A model generated the notes under the pieces. It had not been told where the DNA came from. It was given only the letters and a program-made list of their open reading frames with translations, and did not search any database. 64,000 nucleotides of DNA from a virus. Positions 12,860-63,204 of this stretch are shown one piece after another; the stretch's first letter is position 1; each line of letters opens with the position of its first letter. The stretch is from the IMG/VR virus record IMGVR_UViG_3300018080_000170, positions 1 to 64,000 of that record; one strand, given 5' to 3'. The translations under genes and the position numbers were made by a program.

Positions 12860-12869
12860 CAAAAAGTTC

Positions 12870-12898
12870 TTGCCTTTTTCTGCGAAATCAGCTATAAT
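12870..12898 (+). promoter_or_regulatory. Sigma-70-like promoter of the 12923-14208 cassette
   Basis: TTGCCT, a 17-base spacer and TATAAT at 12893-12898. A consensus TTGACA lies further upstream at 12856-12861 but at unsuitable spacing. It precedes a compositionally distinct cluster of small genes and the tRNA. Confidence 0.65.
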
Positions 12899-12922
12899 AT
12901 AAGAAAGAGGGGAGGACATCAT

Positions 12923-13781: not shown

Positions 13782-13933
13782 AGAAATATCGATATCGTTT
13801 TGGCGAAGACGATTATTGGACGACTGTTGATAACCCGTGGGATGTTGATCTCAGTTATATGTTCATAGGGGGAGTTTGTATAGTTGAGTGTATCGAGGTG
13901 GACGAAGAGAAGGAGGAGAGTGCTGGCGAGTAG
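13778..13933 (+). CDS. Small hypothetical protein ending inside the tRNA gene
   Basis: A GTG overlapping the previous stop opens 51 codons (VKKYRYRFGEDDYW...). The TAG at 13931-13933 lies within the tRNA, so the last ten bases are shared with the tRNA acceptor stem. It is acidic at the C-terminus. Coupling and composition support it. Confidence 0.55.
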   Translation: MKKYRYRFGEDDYWTTVDNPWDVDLSYMFIGGVCIVECIEVDEEKEESAGE

Positions 13934-13996
13934 TTCAGTTGGTAGAACGCCTGGCTGTTAACCAGGAAGTCGCAGGTTCGAGCCCTGCCTCGCCAG
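13924..13996 (+). tRNA. tRNA-Asn (anticodon GTT)
   Basis: A complete cloverleaf. Acceptor stem TGGCGAG/CTCGCCA is perfect (13924-13930/13989-13995) with discriminator G at 13996. The anticodon stem is CCTGG/CCAGG with loop CTGTTAA and anticodon GTT at 13957-13959. The T arm is GCAGG-TTCGAGC-CCTGC. CCA is not encoded in full (the DNA continues CAG), so host enzymes must add it. It is the only tRNA seen in the window. Confidence 0.95.
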
Positions 13997-14019
13997 CAGT
14001 TTTTAGAGGAGGAAAGGAA

Positions 14020-15422: not shown

Positions 15423-16387
15423 GTATTAAAGTTTTCTGTGGAACTGCTTCAATGAGTCTTGCTAGCGACATAGTTGCAGATTTAAGTGTATTACTTGGCC
15501 ATTGTGTTACTTTGGGGGAGATGTCGGGGAAGCGTTTTGATGACAAAGAGCTGTTTGTAAAGGTAGAAGAAAGCGTAAGAGGAGAGGATGTATTCGTTGT
15601 TCAATCTACTAGCTCACCAGCTAACGAAACTTTAATGGAGCTTCTGATTATAATTGATGCCCTAAAGAGAGCCTCGGCTGGCAGGGTAACAGCTGTGATT
15701 CCTTATTTTGGATATGCGCGACAAGATCGCAAAACCTCGCCTCGAACGGCGATTACAGCTAAATTGGTAGCAGATCTAATCACAGTCTCAGGAGCAGATC
15801 GAGTGATCACCATTGATCTTCATTCGCCTCAAATTCAAGGTTTTTTTAACATTCCAGTTGACCACCTTTTGGCCGGTCCGCTTTTTGTTAAGTATATTGA
15901 AGAGCGCTATTCATGGGATGATAAACTTACGATTGTTTCGCCGGATGCCGGAGGAGCAGCGAGAGCTCATACATTTGCTAAATATTTAGGCGTTCCTTTG
16001 GCGGTGATGAGTAAGAGGCGGAATGAACATAATAAAGTCGAGACGATGGAAATTATTGGAGATGTAAAGGGAAGAGATATTTTTATCTTTGATGATATGT
16101 GTGATACAGCTGGAACGCTGCTTATGGCGGCCGATGTGTTGAAAGAAAAAGGGGCGGAGGATGTGAGAGCAGCAGTCACTCATCCGGTGCTTTCTGGGTG
16201 GACGATGGATAGGATAGAACAGTCTGAATCATTAACAGAATTAATTATAACTGATACAATTAAGCTTGAAGAACGAATTGAAGATTCTGATAAGATTCAA
16301 ATCGTTTCGGTGGCCGGGCTATTGGCACAGGCAATTAGATGTATTTATACTGATGACTCAATAGGAGCCTTATATAGCTATAAATAA
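15419..16387 (+). CDS. prs: Ribose-phosphate pyrophosphokinase (PRPP synthetase)
   Basis: It makes PRPP from ribose 5-phosphate and ATP, feeding nucleotide and NAD synthesis. At 322 residues it is full length. Visible signatures are PYFGYARQDRKTSPRTAIT (95-113), DLHSPQIQGFF (133-143), the KRRNEHN flexible loop (199-205) and the PRPP loop DDMCDTAGT (225-233). All key residues appear present, so it should be active. Phages often pair this enzyme with a nicotinamide phosphoribosyltransferase to rebuild NAD; no such partner is in this window. Its start is coupled by ATGA to the previous gene. A structured RNA follows immediately. Confidence 0.95.
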   Translation: MSIKVFCGTASMSLASDIVADLSVLLGHCVTLGEMSGKRFDDKELFVKVEESVRGEDVFVVQSTSSPANETLMELLIIIDALKRASAGRVTAVIPYFGYARQDRKTSPRTAITAKLVADLITVSGADRVITIDLHSPQIQGFFNIPVDHLLAGPLFVKYIEERYSWDDKLTIVSPDAGGAARAHTFAKYLGVPLAVMSKRRNEHNKVETMEIIGDVKGRDIFIFDDMCDTAGTLLMAADVLKEKGAEDVRAAVTHPVLSGWTMDRIEQSESLTELIITDTIKLEERIEDSDKIQIVSVAGLLAQAIRCIYTDDSIGALYSYK

Positions 16388-16397
16388 GCGGAGGCGT

Positions 16398-16538
16398 GTG
16401 CTCAAATATAGTGCTCGGATCCCTAGGTGGATGGGAGGGTTAGGTGTTAGGGCAAGCTATAGAAACCCATCACTCTCTATAGCCTCTGCGAATACGTCCA
16501 CCCAATGGCCGTCCTAACACGTCCGTTGGGCCGAGCAC
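16398..16538 (+). ncRNA. Large pseudoknotted intergenic RNA
   Basis: GTGCTCGG (16411-16418) pairs perfectly with CCGAGCAC (16531-16538), enclosing about 110 bases. Inside, GGTGGATG (16426-16433) pairs with CGTCCACC (16495-16502) and GTGTTAGGGC (16444-16453) pairs with GTCCTAACAC (16511-16520). The latter crosses the former, so this is a pseudoknot. GCTATAG/CTATAGC (16456-16462/16477-16483) is a seven-pair hairpin, and CCCAA/TTGGG may close another. A second GTGCTC at 16398-16403 can compete for the same 3' strand. This looks like a ribozyme, switch or stable RNA. It lies between the PRPP synthetase and a membrane protein gene. Class unknown. Confidence 0.75.
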
Positions 16539-16556
16539 AAAGAAAAAGGAAAGGGA

Positions 16557-16847
16557 ATGATTAAACGATTACTAGCACTGAACATAATGCTTAAGTTTCT
16601 GGATGTATATCTAACGCGGATTGCGTTAGGTATTGGAGGAAGAGAGGCTAATCCGATAGCTGATTTTCTCATGCAGATTCTAGGAGTTGATTGGGCTTTG
16701 TTACTATTATTTTGCTGGGTAGTAGCAATTATGACAATCATTGCTCAGTACTATTCTAAAGCAGTTTATGTACTTGGAATTATTGGTATTTTGCATGGCT
16801 CCGTTGTCTTGTGGAATAGTTATGTGATCTATAGACTTTTAGCTTGA
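16557..16847 (+). CDS. DUF5658-like membrane protein
   Basis: 96 residues with three to four hydrophobic segments. The N-terminal region FLDVYLTRIALGIGGREANP fits the D-x-x-x-T...GG-x-E-x-NP pattern of DUF5658, a small membrane family of unknown function. It sits 19 bases after the pseudoknotted RNA, with AGGAAAGGGA as ribosome binding site, and may be controlled by it (inference). Confidence 0.65.
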   Translation: MIKRLLALNIMLKFLDVYLTRIALGIGGREANPIADFLMQILGVDWALLLLFCWVVAIMTIIAQYYSKAVYVLGIIGILHGSVVLWNSYVIYRLLA

Positions 16848-16892: not shown

Positions 16893-17183
16893 ATGAAGAG
16901 ATTTTTGCTGTGCCCGCAGGATGGAGGGTTACACGATATAGAATGCGACGATCATAATGTCAAGATGACATACTCGGAGTTTGATAAAAGCTGGACTAAG
17001 CCCGGTGGTGTTTGTGGAAAGCTTCACGACCATGGGAATGGTCTTTCTATTAAGACAGATGGGGCTGAGTATAGGTGGGATTATTGTAAGGCGTATTACA
17101 TCTTCACGATGTTGGAAGAGTATTATAAAGCGAGCGGTCAAGATCCTTATTGTCGAAAGTTTGAGGTGGAGGAAGTTAAATAG
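16893..17183 (+). CDS. Hypothetical protein, 96 residues
   Basis: ATG after GAGGAGAAAGATC. The product has several Cys and His (CPQDGG, ECDDH, VCGKLHDH, DYC, YCRK) that could bind metal. No known domain. Its TAG overlaps the GTG of the next gene. Confidence 0.6.
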   Translation: MKRFLLCPQDGGLHDIECDDHNVKMTYSEFDKSWTKPGGVCGKLHDHGNGLSIKTDGAEYRWDYCKAYYIFTMLEEYYKASGQDPYCRKFEVEEVK

Positions 17184-17683
17184 TGTCAGAAGTCTTCTTT
17201 ACATCGGATCATCATTTCGGTCATACCAATATCATCAAACATACTAATCGTCCGTTTAAAAATGCTAATCAAATGAATGAACGCTTGATAGCTGAATGGA
17301 ATACAATTGTTCGGCCAGATGATGTAGTTTATCATTTGGGCGATTTTGCCTGGGGTAATAACGCAGAGAGAATTGGTTCGTTCATAAAAAGATTAAATGG
17401 GAACAAACATTTGGTTCTCGGTAATCATGATAAATTGAAACCTTTTTCATATGTTGAGGCTGGCTTTCTGAGCGTGCATACCAGTCTAGAGTTTAATGGT
17501 ATTTATTTGGCTCATGATCCGGCTGTTAAAGTAGCCTTACAGAAAGGTGATTGGTTAATTCATGGACACATTCATAATCTATGGAAAATAGAAGAGGATA
17601 AGAAACTGATTAATGTATCAGTGGAAGTTTGGGACTATAAACCGGTTATGTACGAAACCTTACGATGTATAATAAAGGAGTAA
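17183..17683 (+). CDS. Calcineurin-like metallophosphoesterase
   Basis: 166 residues with every signature block: SDHHFGH (D9, H11), HLGDF (D54), LGNHD (N81, H82), AHDP (H111) and HGHIH (H127, H129), which together hold two metal ions. It resembles the small predicted phosphoesterases common in phages that contain DHHFGHTNII. It should hydrolyse a phosphodiester or phosphomonoester, possibly a nucleotide; the substrate cannot be told. GTG start overlapping the previous stop. Confidence 0.85.
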   Translation: MSEVFFTSDHHFGHTNIIKHTNRPFKNANQMNERLIAEWNTIVRPDDVVYHLGDFAWGNNAERIGSFIKRLNGNKHLVLGNHDKLKPFSYVEAGFLSVHTSLEFNGIYLAHDPAVKVALQKGDWLIHGHIHNLWKIEEDKKLINVSVEVWDYKPVMYETLRCIIKE

Positions 17684-17693
17684 ATCCGCCCTG

Positions 17694-17727
17694 TAAAGGG
17701 TATTATAAAAGTCGCTCCGTCGGGAGC
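17694..17727 (+). other. Two small hairpins in the leader of the cloverleaf RNA
   Basis: CCC-tgtaaa-GGG (17689-17700 region) and GCTCC-GTCG-GGAGC (17714-17727) lie between the phosphoesterase gene and the cloverleaf-like RNA. They may belong to the same transcript. Confidence 0.4.
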
Positions 17728-17742
17728 AATGTACAAGACATA

Positions 17743-17843
17743 GCGCTGGGGCGAGGCTGGCTCGCCCAACCCGGGTTCTAGAACTGGGTAAGTGCACAGG
17801 GTTTTAGCGCAGAGTTCGCTAGAAGTTAGTCAGACCCCAGCGC
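17743..17843 (+). ncRNA. Cloverleaf-like structured intergenic RNA
   Basis: GCGCTGGGG (17743-17751) pairs perfectly with CCCCAGCGC (17835-17843). Three hairpins lie inside: GGCGAG/CTCGCC (17750-17755/17761-17766, sharing two G with the outer stem), ACCCGG/CTGGGT (17769-17774/17784-17789) and TTTTAGCG/CGCTAGAA (17802-17809/17817-17824). The 101-base element looks tRNA-shaped but lacks tRNA arm lengths, a normal T loop and a CCA end. It shares no clear sequence with the other three RNAs. Function unknown. Confidence 0.7.
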
Positions 17844-17866
17844 CCTTATTTGAGGAGGAGAGGAAA

Positions 17867-18109
17867 GTGGCCAATAAGGAAATAAATACGGGAGGAATTA
17901 GCGTTACTGGGCTACTGGGAGTTGCTTTTGTCGTGTTGAAGTTGACGGGAGTAATTGATTGGTCTTGGGGTTGGGTGCTAGCGCCATTTTGGATTCCACT
18001 AGTTATATTTTTGACGATTTTCGCAATGGCAATTGTGGGATTTGTGGTATTTGCTCTTGGCAAAGCGTATATGCAACAAAGACGAGATAAGAGGAGGTAT
18101 GGACGATGA
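17867..18109 (+). CDS. Small membrane protein (transmembrane Fragile-X-F type)
   Basis: The GTG at 17867 follows GAGGAGGAGAGG. The 80-residue product has two membrane segments, about 12-30 and 40-65. NTGGISVTGLLGVAFVVLKL, then G-V-I-D-W-S-W-x-W-V-L-A-P-F-W, resembles a small phage membrane family labelled transmembrane Fragile-X-F protein. A longer frame starting at 17792 would run through the RNA and is rejected. Coupled to the next gene by ATGA. Confidence 0.65.
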   Translation: MANKEINTGGISVTGLLGVAFVVLKLTGVIDWSWGWVLAPFWIPLVIFLTIFAMAIVGFVVFALGKAYMQQRRDKRRYGR

Positions 18110-18651
18110 GGAGAGCATTATTTGCAGTTACGTTAATCTTGATGGGCTTATTTTTAATTAGCTGTGGAAGCGAGAAGATCGTTGAAACAGTTACTAATAA
18201 TGGACCACAAGGTGAACAAGGAGAAATGGGAGAGCCGGGCGAAACGGTTGTTGTAGAGGTTCCAACTCTACCGGAGTTTGTTGGTGAGTATTATTTGCCA
18301 TTTTCTGGCTATGTTATCATCAATGTGAACCATGAGGATGAATACTCTGTTACAGCTCGCTATGAAACATTGAACCCAGACGACTCTATTTGCGTGTTAT
18401 CTCTGAATGGAAGTACAATTGATTTGCATAATGATATCTTGCTGTATGGAGCAACAGTGAGCCTTGTTAGCGGAAATTGTGATGACGATACTACAGGAGC
18501 AGCTTTATCGACTGGCTCAGGTCGAAACTACCGATATGAAGTAGTGATTGGCTTTAATGATGATGATTTGCTAACAGTTAACTTGCAAGTGTTTCAGACC
18601 CGCAATGGGGTGACAACTCGAGTTATTAACCGAGATATGGTTGAGGAATAA
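18106..18651 (+). CDS. Lipoprotein with short collagen-like stretch
   Basis: A lipoprotein signal peptide ends in LISC with C20 as the lipidated residue. Five Gly-X-Y triplets follow (GPQGEQGEMGEPGET, residues about 33-47), then a beta-rich domain of about 130 residues containing two Cys. It should be anchored in the host membrane facing outward. Collagen-like repeats trimerise in phage fibres. A host-surface role such as superinfection exclusion is inference. Coupled to its upstream neighbour. Confidence 0.7.
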   Translation: MRRALFAVTLILMGLFLISCGSEKIVETVTNNGPQGEQGEMGEPGETVVVEVPTLPEFVGEYYLPFSGYVIINVNHEDEYSVTARYETLNPDDSICVLSLNGSTIDLHNDILLYGATVSLVSGNCDDDTTGAALSTGSGRNYRYEVVIGFNDDDLLTVNLQVFQTRNGVTTRVINRDMVEE

Positions 18652-53736: not shown

Positions 53737-56700
53737 ATGCCCAGAAAGCTTAAAGGCGATCATACTGTAGAACGAGATCTTCGTGTTGAACGAAATATAA
53801 CTCAAGAAAGCGCCGCCAATCCTTTGCGAACGATGAAGGATTTAAGTGGGGCTGTTGATAAAAAGACAATTCGAGAAGTTGTATCTAGCGGAAATTACAA
53901 GTTATATTCTGTCAACGATGACGATTCTACGAATGTTGATAATATACTTGTGGTTAATCTTGAGTCGGGGAATATTGGTATTGGCGTCGTCCCGACTAAT
54001 TCGGGTGGGAATGCCCTGCGAATTGGTCTCACTACTACAGTTAAGGGAAATAGCGAAAAATTAACTGCCTATAACGAAGCAACAGCTGGAACAGCCGATA
54101 CGACTGTTGGCGCTAGATTATTGCTTGATTCTAATTCTGCGAATACTGCAGGCCAATCTACTATCTATTCAGAAGTTAGACGTAGAATGACTGCTAGCAC
54201 TGAAGATACGGCTGGAATTTTATCTGCTCTAGAGTTGAAATCTGTTCTAGATCCGGATGGAGGAGCTGTTACTTATACTCATAGTGATGGGACTATGGGC
54301 GTGGCGGATTTGGTTGCTCATGGTATTCAGAATGTTGGTTCTGGAAGTCTTGCTATTTCTCATGCTGCGGCTCTTTATGTTAAAGCAAATTCGGTTGTTG
54401 GCGCAACCAATAAGTATGGATTGTATATTGGTACAATTGCAGGAAGTACAAATGATTATGCAATTTATACTAATACAGGGAAGGTAAGATTTGGCGAGAC
54501 GGTAGAGATTCAGCAATATCTTGGTGTTGGAAATGCTCCTAGTTCTACTGTCGGAGCTTATATTCAAAATACAGATCTAACGGGAACAGTTCAGACTGGA
54601 ATTCATAGCTCTCCAATTAGTACGGCGGCTGCAACAGTTAGTATGCGCGGAATTGTTTCGGCTCCTCAAACAACAGATGCTGTATTTACTTGTGAAAATT
54701 TGACGGCTTTTATGGCTTTAGACGCGGCTAAAGGAGCATCCTCAACTATAACTCGTCATAGGATGTATTACGCTGCTTCTCCTACTCAGGGGACAAATAA
54801 CGTTTGGGGAACAGACAATCTAACATTCACTGGAGATTACGTTTTTCATTTTACTTCTACCCGTCCAAGTGAATTTGCCGGTAGAGCTGGTTTTGGTGGT
54901 TCGGCTTCAGCAAATGCGATCGTACGAGTTGGTGCAACTAATCCATTGGGGGGTACTATTCAGCGTGGGTTTGCCGCCGAGATGGAGGCGACATCAAATG
55001 CTACTAATGCAGTTGTAGGTGTTCTTGGTAACGTTACGACAGCTGCGGCTTCTTTTACTACTGCTTATCTTGCACAACTTCAAGCATCAGATAGAGCTAA
55101 GGGGTCTGGAAGCACTATTACCAGGAAAATTGGTATTCATGCGCCGATGCAAACTGGCGGAACGAATAACGCAATTCTTGTAGATAATACTTCTTTTGTT
55201 GGTAATTTTGGAATTAATTTAGCTACTATGAGCCCATCTGAGTTTGCTGGACGTATGGGTATTGGTGGTAGTTCTAGTTCTGGAGCAGTTTTACAAATTG
55301 CTGCATCTAATCCAATTACTAGCGTGGAACAAAGTGGGATATTTATTCCTATAGTTGGAAGTTCCGATGCCACAACGGCTATTTTTGGAGTCCAATCATA
55401 TCCGACAACTGCGGATGAGACTTTTACATGTGCGCTTGTTACAGGTTATACATTTTATGACAGAACAAAAGGTGCTGCTTCAACAATTACACGTCACATT
55501 GGATATTATGGAGCTCAACCTACACAGGGCACTTATAATACTTTTATTTCAGATGACGATTCGTTTACTGATGATTATTCAATTTATTTAGTTTCTAGTA
55601 GGCCATCTTATTTGGGCGGCGATCTTAGCATAGATGGTGATTTAAATATTACTGGTGCATTAAACGCCGATGGCGGGATTAACGATACGTCTGGCGATAT
55701 TATTCAGTCTACAGTTGGAAGTTTCTTCTGGAATATTGATTCTAATGATGATAGCTCAGATGAGGTTTTTGAGTGGGCGTCGGATCGAGTAGGGGATTCG
55801 GGTGGTGATATTTTAATGCGCCTAACCGATGAAAATATTTTATATTTGTTTGATTCGGCAAGTAATGGTCCCGCTTCGGGGAATCTTAAAAATTATGCTA
55901 GTTATCAAGCTGGTATTGGAGCCGCAAGCGATTCCGAGTTCGGCTTATTCGCAGGAATTGCTGATGGTGTATTAAGTTTGTCTGGCGACACCGGGTTTGG
56001 CGCCGGTTCAACAAAGTTGAGTATTTTTAGTGGTGGGCATTCTACTCCAAATAAAATGGTTGCCTATATTGATGGTAATGTTTTAGCTCAGTTAGATGCT
56101 ACAGGCTTACAAATAACAAGTGATGGTGATGCACCTCTAAAAGTTATTAGTGGCGATCCTGGGTCAGATTTGCAAGTTACTGATAGCACAATGACTGCTC
56201 ATATTCGAGCATATAATGAACAATTTGCAATTGCTAGTGCAGGGACAAGTCCTATTTATTTTATTTCTGATTATGGCAATGGATCAACTAGCGCCGATTT
56301 TATTTGGAAAACGGACTCTACTACATTAAATACTCCTAATGGCACAGAGTTAATGAGACTCACCGATGGAGGAAATCTTTTAATTGGTATTACAGCTCCC
56401 GATGGGATTGAAGCGCTACACGTTAAAAAGAGTTATAGCGGCGCTGGATCTTTTGAAGCTGCCTATATTGAAGCTATTTCATCTCCAAGCGTGGCACTAA
56501 CTGGTGGGGTTAATGGTTTAATTGTGTATGGGGAGCGTCAGGTCAGTGCGTCCGCAACAGATACTGGACGCGTTCATGCGCTATCGCTTAGAAGTCTTTT
56601 TGATGTAGATTCCGGACAGACATTAAGCTGTTCTAATTCTTCGGCTTCGACTATATATTCAACTTTACATGTTCAGGCTCCAGCTAATACCGGGTCTGGG

Positions 56701-59700
56701 ACAGTTAATCTTGATAAGTTTGCCTATATTTCTATTAGTAGCAATACTCATCTTGATACTGGAACAGATAAGTATGCTATATATATAGATCAGATTTGGG
56801 GCGCAACTAATAACTGGGGTATTTATCAGACGTACGGTGGAAACAATAACTATTTTGCTGGCCCTATCCGAGCCGGAACAACTGGCGGGATTACAGATGC
56901 CGATGAACAAGTAACTGTTTATCGCGAGTATGATGCAGATAGTCTTAACCCCGTAGGATTAGGGGTCAGGCTTGTTTTAGATAGATCATCTGCTTATACT
57001 ATTGCTAATTCGCGCGGTGCTGAAATTGAAGTTCAAAGAAGTTATGGTTCTAACACAATTTCAGAAGGTCATGATTTATTTGGAAGCGCATTTAGGGCTC
57101 TTTTTAATGGTAGCGGCTCATATACAAATACTTCAAATGTTATGGTTATCCGTACTATTTCGCCGTCTTTTTCAGGCGGCGGAACAGTTAGTTTGAATTC
57201 TTATATGGGCATGTTTATTTGTGACGTGAGTACTTCTAACGCAACAAATCAGTTTGGTTTATATATCGGTAATCAAACAGGTGGCTCTTCTCAAAATTAT
57301 GCTATTTATACTAATGATGGCGCGGTTCGTTTTGGTGAGCAAGTTACTGTCGAAGATAATCTTGGTCGCGGACTAACTATTAAAAATCCAAATGCTAATA
57401 GTCAAGCCCGAATTAATATGTATGCGTCTGGGGATACTAAATCTTGGTGGCTTGGGAGAATCACTGGCGCAGAGGGAATGTTTGGAATTCAATATGCAAA
57501 CGGCCTCAATAGTAGCGCACAACTTCAATTAAGAAACAATGCCGATGATGCAATTGATGCGCAAGCTGGAACTGGTAGATTTGCGGCCGGTGGCCCTACC
57601 ATTCAAGATACGGATCGTTGGATTATGCTTGGTTTAACCGACACTAGTCAGACAGTTCTTACTGGCACTTCTCAAGTTGGCACGAGAATGGCTTTTCGCG
57701 CCAATAGTAATGCAACGACTATGATTACCGGAGCCGTTATTGACGCTAAAAGCGATGACGCTTCTTTCGCTACAACCGATATTGTAATGTTGGATGTAGG
57801 CTCATTTACTTTAGGTGCTGGACATACTTGTACAGATATTATTAGTTTACTCGTGAGGCCTCAGCCGATTGATGATGCTACTAATTCGGCTTATATTTCA
57901 ACCACAACTGCATTAGAATCGGGTGATTGGTTTATTCATTCGACTTCAATTCGTCCGAGTTGGTTGTCTGCACCATTGAGAGTTAATCCAGCTACCTCAG
58001 CTCAAGTTTCAGGAACAAATAATACTCTTCTTGAAATTATTCGTTCATATACAGGTGCTGCTGGGAATTCGCATATTGCGGCTTTTATTGAAAATGATTT
58101 AACAACAAACGCTTCTCTTACTGCCACTCAAACAACTTTAGAAGTTAAACATAGCCGAACTGTAACGGATGATGTTTCGGAGGCGACTGGAGTCGGACTC
58201 GGTTATGCGGCTAATCTTTTGGTTGGGTCGGATTTTGATGTTGCAGCTACAAAGACATATTCATATACTGATTCTGGTGGCTATAATGAAATTTCAATCG
58301 CCACTTTAAATGAGTTAGGGGCCGGAACAACTGCTATTTCAAATTATGTTAAGTTACGTATTAAATCCGATACTGGCTCAAACAGTACTAATAAGTATGG
58401 AATTTTGATTGATGATATTTCTGGCGCTAGTAATTTAAATTACGCTATTCGAACTAGTGCTGGCCAAGTATATCATGCGGATAATACAGGTATAGGTGCT
58501 TATCCCGACCCCGATATGGCATTGAGAATTGGATGGTCTGGAAATGCGACCGATATTAATCAATATGGTATTTATGTTGGAACAGAAGCAAATTCAAATG
58601 CTACTACTTCGTTGTCAGGGATTGCAATTCTTCCTACAACGGATAATGCGGCGTTTACATGCGCAAGAGTTTTTAATGTTAGAGCTTTAGCTGCCCAAGC
58701 TGGAGCCGGTAGTACAATTCAATATGCTATTAGTTATAATTCGCAGACACAAACCGTTGGAAGCGTTGGAAATGCAGTTCTTGCTGACAATTATAGTTTT
58801 AGCGGCGATTACGGTATTAATCTAAACACCACTCGTCAGAATTATTTTGGTGGCCCGATTAGAGTTAATGATGACAACGGTGTTATTAATACTACTGAAA
58901 TGCTAAGTGTAACAAGAAATTACAATGGAAATGCAGCAGATTCTCATACCGCCGTTACTCTAAATTGGGATTTAGATACCGACGATGCTCTTACAGGTGG
59001 CCAAAGTTGCGTTCTTTATTCTCGTTGGAAAAGAACTATTGATGCTAATGTAACAGATGCGCCTGCTGGGGGCTTTGGCGCAATTCAGAATATGCAAATT
59101 TCTCGTATTTATGATGTTGATGCAGCCGCCACGTATACTTTAACAGATGCGGATGGAATGGCTGCAATTAGAATTCCTAGTGTTTCACTTTCGGGCGGCG
59201 GTACATTAGCTGTTTCACAGATGTACGGAATTTACATTCATGCTGATAGTATTGCAACTGGAATTAATAAGTATGGTTTGAGAATTGGTGGGATGACGGG
59301 CGCAACTAATAACTACGCTATTTATACTGGGATAGGACTCGTTCATTTTGGCGGTGATGTTGAAATTGATGGCGGAGAATTGTTAGTTGGAGATGGAACT
59401 GGTCTTTCTACGATGAGTATTCCCGACACAGCTGGAGGAGCTCCATATCTTGGAGTTAAAGAATCATCTCAGCCAGTTTATACGTCTATTGCGCACCAAG
59501 ATGGGACTTACAATAAGAGAATTGGATTATTTGCCAACAGCGACACGGGGAATGTTGGCGTTGTTTATGGCTCTTCTTCAGATATTCCAACATTTAAGAT
59601 TGTAAGTGATTGGAACGATGCTACTCAATTGTCAATTAATGGCAATACAAATCAAATTACAATTCCTTCAGGCGATGTTGATATTACTAGGACCGATGAT

Positions 59701-62700
59701 GGAAGCGCTATGGGCTTGGTTATTGAGAATACTGGGAGTGATAATGCGAATACCCAGGCCAGAGTGCGATGTACAGTTAATGAAGATGCTGCTCGTTCAT
59801 ATATGGCTATTACCAGAAGCGGATCTTCGACATATGATGTTAGTTGGAATTGGGTATTAGCTACTAATTCAAAAACAATGTATTTGGCTAGAGATGGCTT
59901 GTCTACTAACATTGCAATGTCTATTGACGCAAGTCAGAATGTTGAAATTCCTCAAATTTTAGGTGTTGGCGGAACTTCTGGTTCTGGTTCTATTGTGCGA
60001 GTTGGACAAAATAATCCGCTTAGTGGTACCTCACAATATGGCGTAACAATTGAACACGCTGCAACATCTGCCGCCACTACTTCAGCTATTGGCGTTTTTG
60101 GATCCGTAACAACAGCTAATGCTTCTTTTACTTGTGGAATTCTCCGAAATTTCTTTTCAAATAATCCTACACTTGGAGCTGCAAGCACCGTTACCCGTAG
60201 GATTGGCTACGGCGGAATAATGCCAACAGGCGGAACGAACAACGCATTTATAAGTGACAATATATCGTTCACTAGCGATTGGGGAATTAATCTATCAACA
60301 TCTAATCCGTCTAGGATTAATGGAGATTTAAGACTTAATACTGCATCTGCTATAATTGGCGGATATAATAAATTAACAGTATATGGCGATTATGGCGCAG
60401 GATCAGAAGGGCATAGTAGTCAGGCTATTGGAGCCGAAGGATTGTTTGATTCAGATAGCCCTTATACTGTAAATTCAAATTCTGGTATTTATGGGCAACT
60501 TAGAAGAAATATTACAACGAGTGTAACTGATACTGGTGGTTATTTTGGCGCGTTAACAGCTAGACTAGCATTTAATGTTGCTTCGGCTCAAACATATACT
60601 AACGCGCAGAGTCCTGGATTTGCTTCCGTTATGATTAACTCACCGCAGAACTATGGATCAGGAACTCTTGCCATTACACATTTTGCCGGCCTTTGGGTTA
60701 ACAGTTCGTCTCTTGCCACAGGTAGTTATAAGTACGGAATATATGTGGGAAGTCAATCCGGGGCTTCGAATAACTACGCTATCTATACAAATAATGGAGA
60801 TGTCAGATTCGGAGACGATGCTGAAGTAGTTGGAAAAATGGGTGTTGGTGGAGCTGCTTCGTCTAATGCAATTCTTAGAACAGGTTACGCCAATCCTCTT
60901 ACAGGAACTAACCAGCGCGGTTTTGCTGCCGAAATGGAAGCAACATCAAATGCTACTACGCATGTTGTAGGTTATCTTGGTAATGTTACAACTGAGGCCG
61001 CTTCTTTTACAACTCCCTATCTTGCGCAATTTCAAGCATCAGATAGAGGTAAAGGATCTGGAAGCACTATTACTAGGAAGATGGCATTTTATGCTCAAGA
61101 GCAAACTGGCGGAACTAATAATGCTATTATAGCTGACAATCTCACATTTTCTGGAGATTATTGTTTGCATTTCACCAATACGAATCCTAGCCATATTTAT
61201 GGTAGAATCGGAATTGGTGGGTCAGCTCATGTTGATACTGCATTGGCGATTCAAAGACCTAGTAATATAGCGGCTGCAAATGAATATGCAGTATTTGTTG
61301 ATTATGTTGGTAGTTCTTCTGCTACAACAAGCATTCGAGGCTATACTTCGCAAGTTACAACTGCTGCAGCTTCATATACCTGTAGCATTTTAACTCATTT
61401 TGGTGCCTATGATATTACTAAGGGTGCCGGCTCAACAATTACTCGTCAGCGTCAATATTGGGGACAGCCACCTGAGCAAGGGACAAATAATGCTTGGGCG
61501 ACCGATAATGCCACATTTACTGGAGATTGGCATTTGCATTTTACTAATGATCGTTGGTCGTTACTTCCTAAGTTGCAATTGAGCGCGACAGAAACTTCTG
61601 ATGCGAATGCAAGATTGTTTGTTAAGAATGGCGATGACGGCCTTGCAGTAGCGGATAGTGTTGGAGCTGCTCGACAAGTTATTCTTGAAAGTAATACAGG
61701 GAATTTTGTTGCATTTAGGCGTCCAGATAGCAATTATAGCGGATTTATTTTTAATGAAGGAACCGACGGAGACGCCGCTCAATTAAGACATCGCTGGACG
61801 GGTACTGCTTCTACTAGTGGATATGAATTTAGAACTAATAATGCTCAATTGTTTAGAATTGCTGCTGATGGTTCCATTTACATGGGCTTTGATGGATCGA
61901 GTGCGGCTAGCTATCTATATGGAGATCGGTTTAATCTTATTTCCAACGGGACTGAAGGATTTCAGCTTGATATCCGAGGCGGCGATACTTCAAATGCTGC
62001 TAACATTAGTAGAATCGATATGAGAGGTTATCGAGCCGATGCGGGTGGCCGTAGTGTTCAAATTGAAGCTTTTTATGGCTCATCTGGAACAAACCGCCAG
62101 ATTGGTGAAATTTCCTTTAATAATACGACGACTGATCCTACAACTACCGGCGGCGAGCTTGAGATGTTGTTGCACAATACAAGCTCGCTCGGAACTGTTC
62201 TTAAGATGACTGCAAGTTCAAGTAGTATGATTTTTGATCTTACAAGCCGCGAGACGTTGATTCAATATAGTTCGTCAAGTGGCGTATATATGCATCTTGA
62301 AAATCAATATGCCGTTTCGTCTACGGGAGCGTATGCACAATTCTTGATTGAAACGAATAATGATAATGCCGATCCTTATGTTAATTGGCGTATTAATGAT
62401 GGCTCGACAGTTAACTGGTCAGCCGGTATTGAGAATGGCGTAAATAATAGATTTAAAATTTGCCCAGCTTCGGGTCTTGGAACTGATCTTGGATTAACAA
62501 TTGGAACTACAGGGACAGCGGTTCTGCGTAGAAACGAGACAGCTTCGTTAGCTGGTGTTCTTGATTTGACTAATACGAATGCAACATCTGTAGCGAATGG
62601 TATTGGGATGAGGTTCCAGGCTCATAGCACAGATGATGTGGTTCGTACAATGGGCGAGATTTATTGTGTTAAGGAGCAGGTATGGACCAGCACTTCAACT

Positions 62701-63204
62701 ACAAGAGATGCACAGCTCCGATTTTATACTAGTTTGAACGGAACAACCGGCGGGGCGGGGCAGGAAGCTCTTATTCTTGATAGCGCTAAGGAAGTCTATT
62801 TCCCGAATATTTCAACTACGGGCTCTGCTGCGAATGCATTTTTGGATAGTGGAAATAGTAATCAGCTTTTGAGATCGACTTCATCAGCTCGATATAAGAT
62901 GAACATCGAAGATATGAATATCGATAGTTCAAAAATCTTTAGTTTAAGACCTGTTGAGTTTGATGATCGTAACCGCGGGACACATCACTTTGGTCTTGTC
63001 GCTGAAGAAGTTGCAGAGATTCTTCCTGAATTAGTTCAATTTGCTCCTGAGAAGTGTTTAATTCCAGATAGCGATTCGGATAAGAAAGTTCCTGATGGAG
63101 TTCAATATCAGTTGCTTAGCGTACTTCTGTTGAATGAAGTCAAGAAACTCAATAAAGAAATTGAAAAAATTAAATCAGAAAAAGATACAAATAGGAGTAA
63201 CTAA
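53737..63204 (+). CDS. Giant tail fibre with C-terminal S74 self-cleaving chaperone
   Basis: 3155 residues, the largest product here. The N-terminal attachment motif (KLKGDHTVERDL) is followed by a very long repetitive beta-rich shaft. Two repeat types recur: a NKYGLYIG...NYAIYTN-x-G-x-VRFG block (about five copies) and a block with GGxxSSNA...NPLxGTxQRGF ... TGGTNN ... SGDY. The last 107 residues are an endosialidase-type intramolecular chaperone (peptidase S74): S3049 and K3054 in S-S-A-R-Y-K match its Ser-Lys spacing, and FGLVAEEVAEILPELV is typical. The chaperone trimerises the fibre and is then released. No enzyme domain was recognised in the shaft. Confidence 0.85.
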   Translation: MPRKLKGDHTVERDLRVERNITQESAANPLRTMKDLSGAVDKKTIREVVSSGNYKLYSVNDDDSTNVDNILVVNLESGNIGIGVVPTNSGGNALRIGLTTTVKGNSEKLTAYNEATAGTADTTVGARLLLDSNSANTAGQSTIYSEVRRRMTASTEDTAGILSALELKSVLDPDGGAVTYTHSDGTMGVADLVAHGIQNVGSGSLAISHAAALYVKANSVVGATNKYGLYIGTIAGSTNDYAIYTNTGKVRFGETVEIQQYLGVGNAPSSTVGAYIQNTDLTGTVQTGIHSSPISTAAATVSMRGIVSAPQTTDAVFTCENLTAFMALDAAKGASSTITRHRMYYAASPTQGTNNVWGTDNLTFTGDYVFHFTSTRPSEFAGRAGFGGSASANAIVRVGATNPLGGTIQRGFAAEMEATSNATNAVVGVLGNVTTAAASFTTAYLAQLQASDRAKGSGSTITRKIGIHAPMQTGGTNNAILVDNTSFVGNFGINLATMSPSEFAGRMGIGGSSSSGAVLQIAASNPITSVEQSGIFIPIVGSSDATTAIFGVQSYPTTADETFTCALVTGYTFYDRTKGAASTITRHIGYYGAQPTQGTYNTFISDDDSFTDDYSIYLVSSRPSYLGGDLSIDGDLNITGALNADGGINDTSGDIIQSTVGSFFWNIDSNDDSSDEVFEWASDRVGDSGGDILMRLTDENILYLFDSASNGPASGNLKNYASYQAGIGAASDSEFGLFAGIADGVLSLSGDTGFGAGSTKLSIFSGGHSTPNKMVAYIDGNVLAQLDATGLQITSDGDAPLKVISGDPGSDLQVTDSTMTAHIRAYNEQFAIASAGTSPIYFISDYGNGSTSADFIWKTDSTTLNTPNGTELMRLTDGGNLLIGITAPDGIEALHVKKSYSGAGSFEAAYIEAISSPSVALTGGVNGLIVYGERQVSASATDTGRVHALSLRSLFDVDSGQTLSCSNSSASTIYSTLHVQAPANTGSGTVNLDKFAYISISSNTHLDTGTDKYAIYIDQIWGATNNWGIYQTYGGNNNYFAGPIRAGTTGGITDADEQVTVYREYDADSLNPVGLGVRLVLDRSSAYTIANSRGAEIEVQRSYGSNTISEGHDLFGSAFRALFNGSGSYTNTSNVMVIRTISPSFSGGGTVSLNSYMGMFICDVSTSNATNQFGLYIGNQTGGSSQNYAIYTNDGAVRFGEQVTVEDNLGRGLTIKNPNANSQARINMYASGDTKSWWLGRITGAEGMFGIQYANGLNSSAQLQLRNNADDAIDAQAGTGRFAAGGPTIQDTDRWIMLGLTDTSQTVLTGTSQVGTRMAFRANSNATTMITGAVIDAKSDDASFATTDIVMLDVGSFTLGAGHTCTDIISLLVRPQPIDDATNSAYISTTTALESGDWFIHSTSIRPSWLSAPLRVNPATSAQVSGTNNTLLEIIRSYTGAAGNSHIAAFIENDLTTNASLTATQTTLEVKHSRTVTDDVSEATGVGLGYAANLLVGSDFDVAATKTYSYTDSGGYNEISIATLNELGAGTTAISNYVKLRIKSDTGSNSTNKYGILIDDISGASNLNYAIRTSAGQVYHADNTGIGAYPDPDMALRIGWSGNATDINQYGIYVGTEANSNATTSLSGIAILPTTDNAAFTCARVFNVRALAAQAGAGSTIQYAISYNSQTQTVGSVGNAVLADNYSFSGDYGINLNTTRQNYFGGPIRVNDDNGVINTTEMLSVTRNYNGNAADSHTAVTLNWDLDTDDALTGGQSCVLYSRWKRTIDANVTDAPAGGFGAIQNMQISRIYDVDAAATYTLTDADGMAAIRIPSVSLSGGGTLAVSQMYGIYIHADSIATGINKYGLRIGGMTGATNNYAIYTGIGLVHFGGDVEIDGGELLVGDGTGLSTMSIPDTAGGAPYLGVKESSQPVYTSIAHQDGTYNKRIGLFANSDTGNVGVVYGSSSDIPTFKIVSDWNDATQLSINGNTNQITIPSGDVDITRTDDGSAMGLVIENTGSDNANTQARVRCTVNEDAARSYMAITRSGSSTYDVSWNWVLATNSKTMYLARDGLSTNIAMSIDASQNVEIPQILGVGGTSGSGSIVRVGQNNPLSGTSQYGVTIEHAATSAATTSAIGVFGSVTTANASFTCGILRNFFSNNPTLGAASTVTRRIGYGGIMPTGGTNNAFISDNISFTSDWGINLSTSNPSRINGDLRLNTASAIIGGYNKLTVYGDYGAGSEGHSSQAIGAEGLFDSDSPYTVNSNSGIYGQLRRNITTSVTDTGGYFGALTARLAFNVASAQTYTNAQSPGFASVMINSPQNYGSGTLAITHFAGLWVNSSSLATGSYKYGIYVGSQSGASNNYAIYTNNGDVRFGDDAEVVGKMGVGGAASSNAILRTGYANPLTGTNQRGFAAEMEATSNATTHVVGYLGNVTTEAASFTTPYLAQFQASDRGKGSGSTITRKMAFYAQEQTGGTNNAIIADNLTFSGDYCLHFTNTNPSHIYGRIGIGGSAHVDTALAIQRPSNIAAANEYAVFVDYVGSSSATTSIRGYTSQVTTAAASYTCSILTHFGAYDITKGAGSTITRQRQYWGQPPEQGTNNAWATDNATFTGDWHLHFTNDRWSLLPKLQLSATETSDANARLFVKNGDDGLAVADSVGAARQVILESNTGNFVAFRRPDSNYSGFIFNEGTDGDAAQLRHRWTGTASTSGYEFRTNNAQLFRIAADGSIYMGFDGSSAASYLYGDRFNLISNGTEGFQLDIRGGDTSNAANISRIDMRGYRADAGGRSVQIEAFYGSSGTNRQIGEISFNNTTTDPTTTGGELEMLLHNTSSLGTVLKMTASSSSMIFDLTSRETLIQYSSSSGVYMHLENQYAVSSTGAYAQFLIETNNDNADPYVNWRINDGSTVNWSAGIENGVNNRFKICPASGLGTDLGLTIGTTGTAVLRRNETASLAGVLDLTNTNATSVANGIGMRFQAHSTDDVVRTMGEIYCVKEQVWTSTSTTRDAQLRFYTSLNGTTGGAGQEALILDSAKEVYFPNISTTGSAANAFLDSGNSNQLLRSTSSARYKMNIEDMNIDSSKIFSLRPVEFDDRNRGTHHFGLVAEEVAEILPELVQFAPEKCLIPDSDSDKKVPDGVQYQLLSVLLLNEVKKLNKEIEKIKSEKDTNRSN

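Follow-up and report, generated by a model that had tools for sequence, protein, structure and literature searches.

A conserved non-coding element in a Herelleviridae-like phage

In the genome of a bacterial virus, uncultured and known from environmental DNA alone, we identified a conserved, non-coding and, judging from two effective sequences, probably structured element, RNA1 (17698..17846, + strand), composed of small upstream hairpins and a closed domain. We tentatively read it as a lineage-specific sense-strand structured RNA that would be trimmed from a polycistronic message and act in trans, like RNAs C and D of phage T4 in kind, and we place the probability of this reading somewhat short of even. 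The stretch of DNA analysed, hereafter the window, spans 64,000 nucleotides of a 70,393-base virus record (IMG/VR IMGVR_UViG_3300018080_000170). Its capsid protein (MCP) is ~31% identical to those of SPO1-like Herelleviridae phages, and the virus is a large Herelleviridae-like phage. The window also carries an ORF of 3155 aa with internal repeats (53737-63204), which apparently encodes a giant tail or fibre-like protein.

RNA1 occupies an intergenic gap whose length of 183 bases (17684..17866, + strand, ORF table) agrees with the initial annotation of this locus. Upstream lies the gene for a calcineurin-like phosphoesterase (PF00149, phrog_547; 17183..17683, + strand), and downstream, in the window, a gene for a small membrane protein (phrog_1374; 17867..18109, + strand). 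Two relatives were found in IMG/VR (3300018080_000123 and 3300017991_000085), with a capsid protein 93% identical to that of the window virus and long blocks syntenic with the window. Both (2/2) contain RNA1 at the same position, in one copy per record as in the window virus; the lack of conservation in related phages, which the initial annotation had named as an argument against its RNA, thus did not occur. As these two hardly differ from each other, they count as one independent comparison, so that effectively two sequences are compared throughout.

Over 144 aligned bases, the segment 17698-17843 is 91.7% identical to the relatives (4 gap columns); in 15 genes compared, third codon positions are 49-68% identical. 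The stretch 17701-17780 ranks second in conservation among 2149 intervals of 80 nt, coding and non-coding alike, taken from the 26 kb compared. Zeros at 16300-16580 in the sliding conservation profile are an anchor artefact and were left out. Several 1-nt indels separate the RNA1 sequences of the window and the relatives, which leaves no reading frame, and RNA1 is therefore not coding; it is conserved above the local background without coding constraint. RNA1 is not the only intergenic stretch so well conserved: several other gaps are 0.87-0.97 identical, and a promoter, a hairpin or a small ORF can partly explain this in some of them. One 63-base gap (12860-12922), 97% conserved, contains a strong sigma-70-like promoter (TTGCCT, ~17 nt, TATAAT) that is probably an operon promoter, and another conserved gap (2333-2426, 0.91) has a long hairpin, GGTCTATT..AATAGGCC, that may be a terminator or some other RNA element.

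The phosphoesterase gene is the upstream neighbour in the relatives too. The phrog_1374 gene is not at this place there, and a lipoprotein-like ORF (18106..18651 in the window, + strand) directly follows RNA1; in the window the membrane-protein ORF is inserted between RNA1 and the lipoprotein gene, with the junction at the ribosome-binding site. As the next gene downstream differs and RNA1 is kept, RNA1 is not tied to one gene. Small membrane-protein ORFs of phrog_1374 are widespread in viral contigs. The relatives differ at the tRNA-Asn gene of the window (13924-13997) too, of which they keep only about the first 12-19 bases; in a relative (17360-17870) this remnant is followed by an ORF for a PD-(D/E)XK endonuclease (PF11645) and then by a different tRNA-Asn, which looks like the replacement of the tRNA by a homing-type insertion.

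Predicted fold of RNA1

The 9-pair GC-rich closing stem, P1, was located exactly where the initial annotation had placed it: GCGCTGGGG (17743..17751, + strand) pairs with CCCCAGCGC (17835..17843, + strand) at a predicted probability of ~0.97-1.0 in the window, and the stem is invariant in the relatives. The 101-nt domain that it closes folds at -45.1 kcal/mol (z -2.67; 2/200 shuffles equally stable). When both strands were scanned for GC-rich closing stems with at least 8 pairs, no other element of this span had so low an energy per base, and the next independent match on the + strand was another intergenic element (16411-16538), described below as RNA2.

The minimum-energy fold consists of P1, a long-range helix P2 and two hairpins, all on the + strand. 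P2 (17755..17762 with 17824..17831) has pairing probabilities of 0.75-0.97 in the window and ~0.5 in the relative, where two G-U to G-C changes are kept and one C-G pair is broken to C-A. P3 (17769..17789; 17769-17774/17784-17789) is shifted in the relative to CCGGG-UUCUAGA-CCCGG, and in P4 (17803..17823; 17803-17809/17817-17823) an inner G-C becomes U-A in the relative and the outer pairs are not conserved. P3 and P4 are two of the three inner hairpins that had been described as a cloverleaf; the first, of 6 pairs (GGCGAG/CTCGCC), is not part of this fold and competes with P2. It also needs two bases of the closing stem, G8 and G9, and three-hairpin versions free of this overlap reach only -38.9 to -39.7 kcal/mol, i.e. 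are 5-6 kcal/mol weaker than the P2 fold. The best fold of the window that keeps the GGCGAG/CTCGCC hairpin has -42.4 kcal/mol; in the relative, the P2 and hairpin folds are nearly equal (-43.0 and -42.6, 0.4 kcal/mol apart).

The two small hairpins noted earlier just upstream are present on the + strand, CCC/GGG at 17689-17700 and GCTCC/GGAGC at 17714..17727, together with a weak third, ATGT/ACAT, at 17729-17741. On the minus strand the second is terminator-like, and this hairpin (17712-17729) and the CTTTTATAAT that follows it are conserved in the relatives. An invariant four-codon mini-ORF, ATGTACAAGACATAG (17729-17743), lies just 5' of the closing stem.

Of the 35 pairs in the window fold, the relative keeps 30, no more than chance would give: random placement of the same changes keeps a mean of 28.5 (p 0.23, effectively two sequences). 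Because the 3' half of RNA1 was misaligned by MAFFT, these counts were taken from a separate pairwise alignment; the covariance model R1 derives from the MAFFT alignment and is therefore less sensitive for that half. P1 never varies and covariation therefore gives no test of it. On either strand, the consensus energy of the core is lower than that of most column-shuffled alignments (z -2.5 for +, -3.2 for -). The changes kept in the + strand fold, three G-U/G-C exchanges and one compensatory G-C to U-A, lean towards the + strand as the one that folds.

Distribution of RNA1

Beyond the two IMG/VR relatives, RNA1 was absent from all other viruses and genomes searched. BLAST of the 183-base gap against isolate phages gave chance matches only, relatives of the two flanking proteins were present in other records without RNA1 beside them, and neither RNA1 nor RNA2 occurred in any record searched among distant capsid relatives. 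The closing-stem pattern matched 26 stretches in viral contigs, of which only the two relatives were true by sequence and context; six additional matches to the conserved-core pattern were rejected, as they all share one unrelated 24-base match. Among genome contigs a pattern scan returned 24 stretches, none scoring clearly (best 19 bits), and a prs-based scan returned the two known relatives only. Both RNAs are also absent from Rfam and from all isolate phages searched.

Possible roles of RNA1

The favoured reading of RNA1 as a trans-acting phage RNA starts from directly supported features, i.e. the sequence with its conservation and non-coding nature, P1, the synteny and the lost linkage to one downstream gene. 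RNA1 would be transcribed within a polycistronic message of auxiliary genes and host nucleases would then trim it out; the 9-pair GC-rich stem may clamp its ends so that it persists, and the highly conserved 5' half with the invariant GGTAAGTGCACAGGGT could be where a protein or RNA partner makes contact. The low fold energy and the pair changes kept in the + strand fold speak for this reading too. A search of the + strand of the gap gave no sigma-70-like promoter, and the tRNA and RNA2 are likewise intergenic and equally oriented, in agreement with release from one shared message. Against this reading stand the single independent comparison, the p of 0.23 and the minus strand, which folds about as well. 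Neither RNA1 nor RNA2 has perfect complementarity of 12+ bases to the window.

The position of RNA1 also counts against a role in trans, since it fits a cis-acting leader as well, a serious rival that we nevertheless regard as rather unlikely. As part of a 5' untranslated region, RNA1 would set translation of, or read-through into, the following segment of the operon, and a small hairpin would immediately precede the Shine-Dalgarno sequence. In the window and the relatives alike RNA1 ends ~24 nt before the next start codon, a mini-hairpin precedes the ribosome-binding site in both (CCTT/GAGG, in the relative CCTT/AAGG), and the four-codon ORF ATGTACAAGACATAG is conserved. However, a leader is weakened by the retention of RNA1 in front of different genes, the predicted fold leaves most of the Shine-Dalgarno core unpaired, and the mini-ORF starts only two bases after a possible ribosome site.

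A strong GC stem between two co-directional genes could also be an intercistronic processing or stability element that blocks exonucleases or forms an RNase III-type site and so separates upstream from downstream message levels with no role in trans; this is improbable, as a simple hairpin would suffice for it and the near-invariance of 17701-17780, unpaired bases included, would be left unexplained. A still smaller chance is given to an element that works as DNA or from the minus strand, i.e. a protein-binding or replication-related palindrome, or an antisense transcript that ends at the terminator-like hairpin (17729-17712). RNA1 is partly self-complementary (the model of RNA1 gives its reverse strand 20 bits), the minus strand has the terminator-like site, and the core folds well on both strands; the genes of the region are however all on the + strand, conservation ends at 17864, in the direction in which a minus-strand promoter would be needed, and the kept G-U exchanges favour the + strand.

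The initial annotation rightly held that RNA1 is not a tRNA. ARAGORN sees only the tRNA-Asn at 13924 and the tRNA model RF00005 finds the same locus only, at E up to 10; searches for tRNA, tmRNA and Rfam families at strict and loose thresholds gave nothing for RNA1. With all families of Rfam 15 at gathering score, neither RNA1 nor the relatives' sequences were matched, and at E up to 10 the matches were meaningless. Its anatomy differs too, with a closing stem of 9 pairs instead of 7, the CCA absent and a T-like hairpin that sits mid-element. A T-loop reading of P3 was rejected, as the window lacks the G-C pair that closes the loop, and the 7-nt T-loop-like loop of the relative has U where a T-loop has a purine. 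A tRNA mimic, decoy or decayed tRNA, which the outline of a closed stem around several arms and the T-arm-like hairpin of the relative might suggest, found no positive support and is hardly credible given the lack of any tRNA score at all thresholds used, the wrong arm order, the missing acceptor and T-arm geometry and a loop motif not kept in the window.

Comparison with known phage RNAs

T4 RNA C and RNA D are expressed late and visible on northern blots, and their function is unknown (PMC9697503). They are annotated as rnaC and rnaD (species 1 and 2 RNAs) at NC_000866 70908-71171. In the favoured reading RNA1 is alike in kind to these phage-encoded structured small RNAs of ~120-140 nt, which lie in a tRNA-bearing genome region, but shares neither sequence nor model similarity with them: on the rnaC/rnaD locus, the models R1 and R2 reached at best 6.1 and 4.2 bits. 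RNA C moreover has a canonical T-arm at its 3' end, which RNA1 lacks, and RNA1 sits alone between protein genes.

Phage K of the Herelleviridae expresses non-coding RNAs whose function is unknown, lnc001/002 and seven sncRNAs, some of them intergenic, and its long lncRNAs resemble GOLLD and ROOL by position and abundance (PMC9241854). These are non-coding RNAs in a phage of a related capsid lineage, but no homology to RNA1 was found in the phage collection. GOLLD, ROOL and OLE are large ornate structured orphan RNAs of bacteria and phages, found near tRNAs. RNA1 shares with them its status as a (probably) structured orphan, in their case partly of phages, but they are much larger, and no match to their Rfam families occurs anywhere in the window.

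A second structured RNA nearby

The better-supported structured RNA of the neighbourhood is RNA2, a non-coding element (16388..16538, + strand) between the phage prs and a DUF5658 ORF, 1.2 kb upstream of RNA1. On the + strand it has a closing stem (16411-16418/16531-16538), three hairpins (16420-16436, 16456-16483 and 16501-16530) and a possible pseudoknot (16444-16451/16513-16520). Of the 44 pairs in the window fold, none is lost in the relative although 7 are changed (p 0.0008), including C-G to G-C, U-A to C-G and A-U to G-C, and by consensus energy the + strand is the better one (z -3.8 vs -1.5 on the minus strand). RNA2 has no match in Rfam, and a promoter motif common to the upstream regions of RNA1 and RNA2 was not found. 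That the two are new families of structured, trans-acting phage RNAs at work during infection, restricted to this lineage and placed among auxiliary genes by the phage prs, is a doubtful though conceivable extension of the favoured reading.

Many structured RNAs of phages are still without a known role, RNA C and RNA D of T4 included after decades. A conserved element that, like RNA1, is retained although the gene next to it differs makes a good candidate for a phage RNA acting in trans; the stronger RNA2 beside it provides a second, structurally supported target.
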